64,000 bases of DNA, taken from NCBI GenBank assembly GCA_018823415.1, contig JAHJIN010000431.1:1-64000 (forward strand), given 5' to 3'. The notes below the pieces were generated by a model. That model saw nothing but the letters and a program-made list of their open reading frames with translations, did no database searches and was not told where the DNA came from. The stretch is from Chloroflexota bacterium. Lineage in GTDB: Bacteria > Chloroflexota > JAHJIN01. Below are positions 20,082 through 31,301 of this stretch, piece after piece; the first letter of the stretch is position 1; every line of letters starts with the position of its first letter. Both the position numbers and the translations under genes were made by a program.

Positions 20082-20102
20082 ATATACCCCCTATGGGTAT
20101 AT
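20082..20102. promoter_or_regulatory. CsoR-type operator
   Basis: Perfect eight-base inverted repeat ATATACCC-CCTAT-GGGTATAT. The core ATACCCCCTATGGGTAT has the layout of the known Bacillus subtilis CsoR site (ATACCCTACGGGGGTAT). It lies between the start points of two promoters that face each other, so binding should repress both the thioredoxin-repressor operon and the ferredoxin gene. Confidence 0.85.
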
Positions 20103-20110
20103 CTGGGCAG

Positions 20111-20139
20111 ATTATACCGGCTTTTGGGCGCCATGTCAA
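20111..20139 (-). promoter_or_regulatory. Consensus promoter of the TlpA-like/CsoR operon
   Basis: On the minus strand TTGACA (20134-20139), 17 bases, TATAAT (20111-20116): both hexamers are perfect consensus. Predicted start about 20104, beside the operator. Confidence 0.85.
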
Positions 20140-20158
20140 GCCCGTCGGCAGGTTGCAT

Positions 20159-20377
20159 ATGTTCAATTTCGCCAAAACCCAGGCCACGGCGGTCCCGTAT
20201 GTGCTGGAAGAGCGCTGCGCCAGTTGCCGCAAATGTATCGCGAGAAAATCGTGCAAGAGCAAGGCCATCATCCAACTGGACCCGAGCGAGCCGCCCACTA
20301 TCGACGCCAGTCGGTGCTATGGCTGCCACGCCTGCATCCCCGCCTGTCCCAATGAAGCCATCGTGCTGCCACACTAG
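20159..20377 (+). CDS. Small 2[4Fe-4S]-type ferredoxin
   Basis: 72 residues from ATG 20159 (MFNFAKTQATAVPYV), with AGGTTG ahead. Two cysteine clusters: CASCRKCIARKSC and CYGCHACIPACP. The second is a regular CxxCxxCxxxCP motif; the first has an atypical CxxCxxC then four residues to the fourth Cys and no Pro, so the first cluster could be altered. Small electron carrier. An in-frame ATG at 20093 lies inside the operator and cannot be the start. It stands opposite the TlpA-like operon and shares its operator, so its electrons may serve the same redox or sulfur stress response. Confidence 0.85.
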   Translation: MFNFAKTQATAVPYVLEERCASCRKCIARKSCKSKAIIQLDPSEPPTIDASRCYGCHACIPACPNEAIVLPH

Positions 20378-29268: not shown

Positions 29269-29297
29269 TTGCCAAACCCCCGGCCCTGTGTTAAAAT
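29269..29297 (+). promoter_or_regulatory. Promoter of the DegT-fold gene
   Basis: TTGCCA (29269-29274), 17 bases, TAAAAT (29292-29297). It places transcription start near 29304 and so supports the downstream TTG start codon at 29335 for this gene. Confidence 0.65.
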
Positions 29298-29334
29298 ACA
29301 CCCGGCGAAGGACCTTGGAAACAGGAGCAAGACC

Positions 29335-30543
29335 TTGGGCAAGATCGGGGTGGGCACGGTGAGCGTGGGGCCAGAGGCAAAACGACTCATCAACGAGGCG
29401 TTGGACAAGAACCGCATCTCGCAGGGCCGGCTGGTGCGGCGGTTTGAGCGGCTTTTTGCGGCATATCACGGCCCGACGACGCACGCTGTGGCCGTCGGGA
29501 CCGGCACAGCCGCCGACACGCTGGCCCTGGCCGCACTGTATGACCGGGGCGCACAGCGCGGCGACGAGGTCGTCGTGCCGGCGCTCACGTTCATCGCCAC
29601 CGTCAACGCCGTGGTCCACGCCGGATTTGTACCCCGGTTCGTGGACGCCGACCCGCTGACCTGGCAGATAGACCCGGCGCAAGTGGCAGCGGTCATCACC
29701 GGGCGCACCCGGGCCATCCTGCCGGTGCATCTCTTTGGCAAGCCGGCCCCCATGGACGAACTGGTGGCCCTGGCCGCGCAACACGATCTGGCCGTGGTAG
29801 AAGACGCCGCCGAGGCCCACGGCGCGCGCTACCGGGGGCGCATTGTGGGCACGCTGGGCCTGATGGGCGCCTTTAGCTTTTACTCGGCCCACATCATCAC
29901 CACCGGCGAAGGCGGCGCCGTGATCACCACCGACGAGGACCTGGCCGGCATTTTGCGCAGCCTGCGCGCCCACGGCCGGGCCTGCAAGTGCGAGGTCTGT
30001 CGTCTCAACGTCTCGTCGGCCTATTGTCCGCTCCGCTTCCAGTACGGCGACGACGTGGACACGCGGTTCTTTTTCGAGCGGCTGGGCTATTCAGAAAAGA
30101 TGAACGAGCTGGAAGCGGCCCTGGGCATCGAGCAGATGGCCCGGCTGGACGACATCGTAGAAGCCCGGCGCGCCAACCTGTTCTACCTGAACGAGCAACT
30201 GGCCGAATGGGCCGAGTTCTTCCAGTTCTTGACCGAGGCCCCGCACGAGCGCCTCAGCCCGCTGGTCTATCCCCTGGTCATCCGGCCCGACGCGCCGTTT
30301 ACCAAGCGCCAGATCACCCAATACCTGGAGCACCACGACATTGACACGCGCCCCATGTTTGGCTCTATTCCCACGCAGCAGCCGGCCTATGCGTTCATGG
30401 GGCACCGGCTGGGCGATTTTCCCCACGCCGAGGCCGTGGGCGACCGGGGATTCTATGTGGGTGTGCACCAGGACCTGACCCGGGCCGACCTGGATACCAT
30501 CGTGGAGCGCATCAGCGAGTTTATCCGGCAATCGCTACGCTGA
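29335..30543 (+). CDS. DegT/DnrJ/EryC1-fold enzyme with His in place of the PLP Lys (3-dehydrase-like)
   Basis: 402 residues. Typical DegT blocks: GPEAKRLINEALDKNRISQG, VGTGTAADTLALAAL, DEVVVPALTFIATVNAVVHAGFVPRFVD, RAILPVHLFGKPAPMDEL, VVEDAAEAHGARYRGRIVGTLG. In the PLP loop the sequence is SFYSAHIITTGEGGAV, so residue 186, usually Lys, is His. This substitution is the mark of PMP-dependent sugar 3-dehydrases (ColD, and E1/RfbH). Cys217, Cys219, Cys222 and Cys231 lie close together, similar to the [2Fe-2S] ligands of E1 though with other spacing. It should then remove the 3-hydroxyl of a nucleotide-linked 4-keto-sugar rather than transaminate. Start: TTG 29335 with AGGAG eight bases before. 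Confidence 0.88.
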   Translation: MGKIGVGTVSVGPEAKRLINEALDKNRISQGRLVRRFERLFAAYHGPTTHAVAVGTGTAADTLALAALYDRGAQRGDEVVVPALTFIATVNAVVHAGFVPRFVDADPLTWQIDPAQVAAVITGRTRAILPVHLFGKPAPMDELVALAAQHDLAVVEDAAEAHGARYRGRIVGTLGLMGAFSFYSAHIITTGEGGAVITTDEDLAGILRSLRAHGRACKCEVCRLNVSSAYCPLRFQYGDDVDTRFFFERLGYSEKMNELEAALGIEQMARLDDIVEARRANLFYLNEQLAEWAEFFQFLTEAPHERLSPLVYPLVIRPDAPFTKRQITQYLEHHDIDTRPMFGSIPTQQPAYAFMGHRLGDFPHAEAVGDRGFYVGVHQDLTRADLDTIVERISEFIRQSLR

Positions 30544-30548
30544 GGCCA

Positions 30549-30581
30549 AGAAACCAGGTTTTTCCCAAAAACCTGGTTTCT
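30549..30581. repeat. Palindromic repeat (hairpin) between DegT and GT2 genes
   Basis: GAAACCAGGTTTTT, CCC, AAAAACCTGGTTTC: 14-base perfect arms. Such AAACCAGG-type hairpins recur in intergenic DNA of several filamentous bacteria. No T run follows, and the two genes may still be co-transcribed. Confidence 0.7.
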
Positions 30582-30599: not shown

Positions 30600-31301
30600 A
30601 TGACCATCGCCATTGTGGTTCCGACGTACAACGAGCGCGATAATATCGGCCGGCTGGTGGAGGCGCTGCTGGGGCTGGGCCGAGACCTGCGCGTGATTAT
30701 CGTGGACGACAACTCGCCAGATGGCACCGGCCCGGCCGCCGACGAACTCGCCGCGCAGCACTCGGAGGTCCACGTCATCCACCGCGCCGGCAAGGGCGGC
30801 CGCGGCGCGGCGGTGCTGGCCGGCTTTCGCGAGGCATTGTCCACCAATGCCGACCTGTTCGTAGAGATGGACGCCGATTTCAGCCACGACCCGGCCGAGC
30901 TGTATCGCCTGCTGGACGCCGCCGCCGAGTACGACATGGTCATCGGCTCGCGGGACCTGCCGGGGAGCCGCATCGTCAACTGGCCCTGGCGCCGCACCGT
31001 CTTTCACTTTCTCGCCAACATCTATGCCCGGTTGGTGCTAGGCATCCCGGTGCGCGATTACACCAACGGCTACCGGCTCTACCATCGCCGGGTGCTGGAG
31101 GCGCTGGATTTCGACGCCATCCAGGCCACCGGGTACATTGTCCTCAGCGAGGTGCTGGTGCAGGTGCACCGGGCCGGGTTCCGCATCGGCGAGGTGCCCA
31201 CCACGTTTGTGAACCGGCGGCGCGGCGTCTCCAACGTCACGCCGGCCGAGATCACCGAGGCGTTCACCGGTGTGCTCAAGCTGCGGCGCCGGTACCGATG
31301 A
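30600..31301 (+). CDS. Dolichol-phosphate mannosyltransferase-like GT2 glycosyltransferase
   Basis: 233 residues, one GT-A domain without membrane helices. IAIVVPTYNERDNIGRLVEALL, VIIVDDNSPDGTG, HRAGKGGRGAAVLAGF, LFVEMDADFSHDPAELYRLL (DxD region), DMVIGSRDLPGSRIVNWPWRR, and RDYTNGYRLYHRRVLEAL match polyprenol-phosphate mannosyltransferases. It would make a polyprenyl-phosphate sugar, a donor for GT-C membrane enzymes such as those elsewhere in the window. The stop overlaps the next ATG by four bases. Confidence 0.93.
   Translation: MTIAIVVPTYNERDNIGRLVEALLGLGRDLRVIIVDDNSPDGTGPAADELAAQHSEVHVIHRAGKGGRGAAVLAGFREALSTNADLFVEMDADFSHDPAELYRLLDAAAEYDMVIGSRDLPGSRIVNWPWRRTVFHFLANIYARLVLGIPVRDYTNGYRLYHRRVLEALDFDAIQATGYIVLSEVLVQVHRAGFRIGEVPTTFVNRRRGVSNVTPAEITEAFTGVLKLRRRYR

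Follow-up and report, generated by a model that had tools for sequence, protein, structure and literature searches.

Loss of the lysine that holds pyridoxal phosphate (PLP) as a Schiff base raises the question of what chemistry remains to a DegT-fold protein, and the question is posed by a gene at 29335 in a 64,000-nucleotide stretch of a Chloroflexota genome (the window), whose product carries a histidine at the lysine position and four neighbouring cysteines. Well-characterised sugar 3-dehydrases are, to our knowledge, limited to three kinds: E1, ColD and SpnQ. In all three the catalytic lysine is replaced by a histidine which takes a proton from pyridoxamine phosphate (PMP) while the C3 hydroxyl leaves; E1 and SpnQ bind a [2Fe-2S] cluster and use outside electrons whereas ColD uses glutamate (PMC8987622). 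The protein studied here (the query) likely acts as a 3-dehydrase of nucleotide sugars that depends on PMP and carries an Fe-S cluster in its four-cysteine loop, and its substrate is probably GDP-linked. Its clade would offer a fourth kind of sugar 3-dehydrase with a different predicted cluster site.

A histidine and a four-cysteine loop in a DegT fold

The query belongs to the DegT/DnrJ/EryC1/StrS family (Pfam PF01041 DegT_DnrJ_EryC1, E=3e-101). TTG 29335 is a plausible start, backed by an AGGAG at 29323-29327, 7 nt 5' of it, by the N-termini of relatives and by the promoter-like site (Table 1), and the reading frame stays open upstream as far as TTG 29269. Residues 181-194 of the translation (SFYSAHIITTGEGG) have His186 at the position of the DegT aminotransferase lysine, in agreement with the initial annotation, which had described the Schiff-base lysine as absent; membership of the lysine-dependent DegT sugar aminotransferases is rejected on the same residue. 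The query has four cysteines in total, C217, C219, C222 and C231, which lie in one loop (CxCx2Cx8C). The initial annotation was likewise right that they are close together and spaced unlike those of E1, yet C217-x-C219 aligns with C251-x-C253 of E1. The AlphaFold2 model (pLDDT 92.9, pTM 0.91) is weak solely in the cysteine loop (block means 59-72), and full-length Foldseek comparisons gave TM 0.89/0.85 for E1 (3bcx) and 0.85-0.87 for ColD (2gms/3b8x).

Like the query, E1/RfbH (AscC), the CDP-4-keto-6-deoxy-D-glucose 3-dehydrase of Yersinia pseudotuberculosis (PDB 3BCX, 3BB8), has a DegT fold, a histidine for the lysine and a GR-x-C-x-C motif, and the use of PMP plus an Fe-S cluster is a further likeness predicted for the query. 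In an alignment to the 3BCX chain H186 falls on H220 of E1 and C217 and C219 on C251 and C253, in a shared G-R-x-C-x-C context after the active-site helix. The cysteine ligands of E1 are reportedly C193, C251, C253 and C261, an assignment attributed to Agnihotri 2004 (cited in PMC8987622), and these cysteine positions were confirmed on the 3BCX sequence. The equivalent of C193 is Ala159, which is invariant in the four-cysteine group, so the ligand set differs and coordination of a cluster as in E1 is impossible; the group is predicted to combine two E1-like ligands with two that E1 lacks, the four lying together in a single loop. E1 and the query are about 29-36% identical, space their third and fourth cysteines differently and belong to separate clades, and unlike E1 the query has neither E3 nor CDP-sugar genes nearby. 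Its best NCBIfam model is that of RfbH (NF011936) with 287 bits against a cut-off of 423, and this score, the ligand set and the phylogeny all reject membership of RfbH/E1.

SpnQ, the dTDP-4-keto-2,6-dideoxyglucose 3-dehydrase of the spinosyn pathway, uses PMP and [2Fe-2S] as is predicted for the query, but has the E1-type cysteine set and a dTDP substrate. ColD, the GDP-4-keto-6-deoxymannose 3-dehydratase (PDB 2GMS), also has a histidine at the lysine position (H188); unlike the query it has no cysteine loop, regenerates PMP with glutamate and groups with E1, and the query, with its four-cysteine loop and no grouping with ColD, falls outside the ColD class. A GDP-sugar and a 4,6-dehydratase at an earlier step of the pathway are likely features in common between the query, ColD and the heptose enzymes of C. 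jejuni (PMC10440746).

Table 1. Features of the window around the DegT-type gene, and relatives with the complete histidine and four-cysteine signature (DegT-His, the histidine-bearing DegT gene)
Feature	Location	Strand	Basis or gene content
Sigma-70-like promoter, TTGCCA-17 nt-TAAAAT, directly 5' of the DegT-type gene	29269..29297	+	Consensus match only, 10/12
CDS, 402-aa DegT-fold protein, predicted PMP-dependent nucleotide-sugar 3-dehydrase with four-Cys loop	29335..30543	+	Translation, Pfam, relatives' N-termini
His186 codon, replaces Schiff-base lysine (E1 His220, ColD His188)	29890..29892	+	Translation and alignment
Four-Cys loop C217-x-C219-x2-C222-x8-C231, predicted Fe-S (less likely Zn) ligands	29983..30027	+	Invariant in nine proteins
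Perfect 15-bp hairpin, 3-nt loop, between DegT-type and GT2 genes	30549..30581	.	AGAAACCAGGTTTTT-CCC-AAAAACCTGGTTTCT
Family-2 glycosyltransferase (GT2), next gene, 56 bp 3' of the DegT-type gene	30600..31301	+	Possible user of the product
Relative L021	Desulfobacteraceae Eth-SRB1		GMD-like SDR, PDH-type E1 alpha + beta, HddA-like kinase, DegT-His, HddC-like nucleotidyltransferase
Relative L024	Genome G056		GmhA, GmhB, Fcl-like SDR, GalE-like SDR, HddA-like kinase, split transketolase, B12 radical-SAM, DegT-His
Relative L073	Solidesulfovibrio magneticus plasmid pDMC1, WP_148208558.1		Radical SAM, NUDIX, kinase, ThDP alpha + beta, Fcl-like, DegT-His, SDR, nucleotidyltransferase; SIS protein further on
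Relative L095	Genome G500		Similar to L073
Relative L096	Genome G422		GMD-like and DegT-His overlap, one operon
Relative L035	Viral contig		Split transketolase beside kinase + DegT-His
Relative L036	Viral contig		PDH-type ThDP genes beside kinase + DegT-His
Relative L037	Viral contig

Relatives and phylogenetic placement

The complete signature of histidine and four cysteines recurs in eight relatives that are 42-51% identical to the query. H186, C217, C219 and C222 are invariant in all nine aligned proteins and C231 is kept in 9/9, with a shift of two residues in L096, while most loop positions between the conserved cysteines are variable. Judged from this alignment, the pattern is that of ligands rather than of a decaying loop, and the histidine and the four cysteines are not chance, because they are kept in eight relatives while most other loop positions vary. 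The group is rare, with two strict members in 400 genomes of the phylum (a draw that gave one relative) and three four-cysteine members among the 393 genomes of the class of G056; when 84,980 genomes were scanned for the pattern of the query protein alone, only two close relatives emerged. A search of phage GenBank records gave nothing beyond distant matches, and a literature search for a description of the four-cysteine subfamily found none.

Two IQ-TREE analyses, in which the trait columns were removed from the alignment, place all histidine enzymes (E1/RfbH, SpnQ-like, ColD and the query group) in one clade apart from the lysine aminotransferases (100/99 and 100/98). Within it the E1/SpnQ-type and ColD-type enzymes form a group that leaves out the query (100/100 and 100/99); ColD is the sister of E1, with which a Streptomyces homologue of the SpnQ type also groups. 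The query clade is separate with a support of 100/99, or 95/90 when the divergent L096 protein, its deepest branch, is included. The comparison with RfbH and ColD that the initial annotation had proposed thus sets the query in the histidine clade but apart from both, and its suggestion of a new subtype of PMP-dependent 3-dehydrases is supported at the level of sequence by this subclade. On these sequences the group is a small, previously unseparated branch of predicted sugar 3-dehydrases with a four-cysteine loop of its own. A further histidine-bearing DegT lineage (L005:1495-2676, YMAHLVTTGVGG; L027:1492-2652, YVAHLLSTGIGG) is basal in the histidine clade and has an acidic insert and no cysteines; the L005 gene adjoins an Fcl-like gene.

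AU tests reject a single clade of the four-cysteine proteins and E1 (p-AU 1.25e-6; 4.5e-77 in the second analysis) and likewise a four-cysteine clade without the cysteine-free L022 and L050 (p-AU 6.9e-5). The latter result argues that the loop was probably lost within the query clade, as it is also absent from ColD in the sister clade. Both L022:9995-11119 and L050:8001-9128 lie in the same clade, keep the histidine, lack the cysteine loop and have similar gene clusters, and the Fe-S cluster is therefore not needed by every member. Having lost the whole loop while the histidine and similar neighbours were kept, they offer a natural comparison with and without a cluster, which makes it testable whether the presence of an Fe-S cluster determines if catalysis is reductive as in E1 or relies on glutamate as in ColD.

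Gene clusters of the relatives

A set of orthologues recurs among the clusters of the relatives in differing gene order, with kinases that share 54-66% identity among the bacterial clusters. Matches to the HddA and HddC models are below their cut-offs (157 against 600 and 161 against 300), and the reading of these clusters as heptose clusters is likely, helped by GmhA and GmhB in L024. GDP-4-keto sugars are probably favoured over CDP-linked ones as substrates, since the neighbouring genes are GMD-like and heptose-kinase/guanylyltransferase-like. Split transketolase genes also lie about 2 kb upstream of the operon of the GMD-like and four-cysteine DegT genes in G422 (L096:13501-15411), where they may be housekeeping genes.

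We know of no product structure for such branched deoxy-heptose clusters. Genes for thiamine diphosphate (ThDP) enzymes accompany the histidine-bearing DegT gene in six relatives, and of the ThDP enzymes that add a carbon branch to 4-keto sugars YerE is known, while PDH-type alpha/beta and transketolase-type enzymes are proposed or known (PMC12247030, PMC4753412). For these two reasons the clusters most likely make 4-C-branched 3-deoxy sugars. The yersiniose, erwiniose and AviB1-AviB2-type pathways similarly pair a 3-dehydrase (yersiniose) with a ThDP carboligase whose substrate is a 4-keto sugar (PMC12247030, PMC4753412); unlike them, the relatives' clusters have a PDH-type alpha/beta enzyme or a split transketolase, a heptose-type kinase plus nucleotidyltransferase, and a B12 radical-SAM protein. 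Unusual branched deoxy-heptoses are thereby predicted in sulfate reducers, other bacteria and phages.

L036 and L037 look like phage-borne branched-sugar pathways, to judge from their gene content. Both viral contigs, which have the kinase and the four-cysteine DegT gene (L036 also ThDP alpha/beta), encode a PhuZ-like tubulin, and L037 in addition encodes endonuclease VII-like and DNA ligase proteins (loci L036:1762-2778, L037:1013-1762, L037:1762-2775 and L037:9194-9622). A wider and more tentative proposal, which we hold to be possible but somewhat doubtful, is that the group is a third lineage of Fe-S-dependent 3-dehydrases whose cluster site evolved anew, with every ligand in a single loop, and that its relatives follow an undescribed pathway, also on PhuZ-encoding phages, in which a GDP-heptose-type sugar would be C3-deoxygenated by PMP/Fe-S chemistry, would then gain a carbon branch from a ThDP enzyme of the PDH or transketolase type and would be further modified by the B12 radical-SAM protein.

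Predicted reaction and genomic surroundings

From its anatomy the query is expected to follow the E1/SpnQ route. PMP would condense with a nucleotide-linked 4-keto(-6-deoxy) sugar at its C4 ketone, the candidate substrates being GDP-4-keto-6-deoxymannose or a GDP-4-keto-heptose, and His186, unable to hold PLP as a Schiff base, would deprotonate the methylene group of PMP and expel the C3 hydroxyl. The resulting glucoseen-type intermediate would be reduced in two one-electron steps via an Fe-S cluster held by C217, C219, C222 and C231, after which PMP would be restored and a 4-keto-3-deoxy sugar released. The initial annotation had noted that no E3-type reductase is adjacent and had asked where the electrons come from. 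No such reductase was found near the gene in the window, and a Fer2 search of the genome gave hits whose open frames span 593-677 or 156-206 aa and do not match the length of E3, roughly 330 aa. The absence thus stands, but it is not a strong paradox: SpnQ accepts electrons from general ferredoxin/flavodoxin reductase pairs, so that there is no need for an E3 of its own (PMC8987622), and general ferredoxin or flavodoxin systems may serve the query in the same way. At 20093-20377, 9 kb upstream of the DegT-type gene, is a ferredoxin-like ORF containing two 4Fe-4S motifs; a role as electron donor is speculative.

The missing reductase would also suit a ColD-like 3-dehydrase that regenerates PMP from glutamate, needs no electrons and uses its four cysteines to bind zinc or for structure. 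Cluster-free chemistry appears feasible from the nested L022 and L050, and ColD-type C3-dehydratases of C. jejuni have been proved to act on GDP-6-deoxy-4-keto-heptose with glutamate (PMC10440746). We nevertheless regard this as unlikely, given that the four cysteines are invariant in nine divergent proteins, that C217 and C219 share the position and sequence context of two E1 cysteines, and that ColD itself lacks such a loop. Much less probable still is a 4-aminotransferase of the GDP-perosamine synthase kind, working through another residue or stoichiometrically with PMP. Such synthases, which are lysine aminotransferases, are the top single solved-structure matches by sequence and by fold (Foldseek), and SpnQ shows aminotransferase activity when its reductase is absent (PMC8987622); against this, none of the nine members retains the lysine, nor do L022 and L050, the histidine enzymes split from the lysine enzymes with full support, and the H220K variant of E1 transaminates only non-catalytically (PMC8987622).

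In this genome the DegT-type gene is isolated, with no 4,6-dehydratase or reductase beside it. The window is without the branched-sugar genes of the relatives' clusters, a search for which gave nothing except distant SDR and GT2 matches, and across the genome the closest match to the cluster kinase is weak (57 bits) and the sole transketolase match is an ordinary 669-aa enzyme. With no close kinase and no split transketolase, the same branched-sugar cluster was rejected for this genome, from which it appears to be absent (assembly about 93% complete). That the query is a decayed or non-enzymatic DegT protein (a pseudoenzyme or cluster sensor) left over from a lost cluster would fit this isolation but is the least probable reading, with very little in its favour, as the frame is intact, the pocket residues D157, H186 and E192-G194 and the four cysteines are kept, the gene has its own promoter-like and Shine-Dalgarno-like sites, and at such completeness a missing cluster is no proof.

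The 4,6-dehydratase-like genes of this genome, three of them GMD-like, are on other contigs. On contig C487 (L099, G000) two GMD-like SDRs, a sugar nucleotidyltransferase with a repeat-type C-terminus and a phosphomannomutase-like protein stand in a row, which is the likely GDP-sugar supply. For the query as an Fe-S-dependent 3-dehydrase, the simplest reading here is conversion of GDP-4-keto-6-deoxymannose to a GDP-4-keto-3,6-dideoxy sugar, which fits the two-gene operon of L096, and the adjacent glycosyltransferase is a possible user of the product. Upstream and divergent are two genes with no connection to sugars, one for a 3-hydroxyacyl-CoA dehydrogenase and one for an acyl-CoA dehydrogenase, and beyond them a glycosyltransferase and a polyprenyl glycosylphosphotransferase. 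The hairpin between the DegT-type and glycosyltransferase genes has one other copy in the genome, with a different loop, on contig C283, and is therefore probably a dispersed element.
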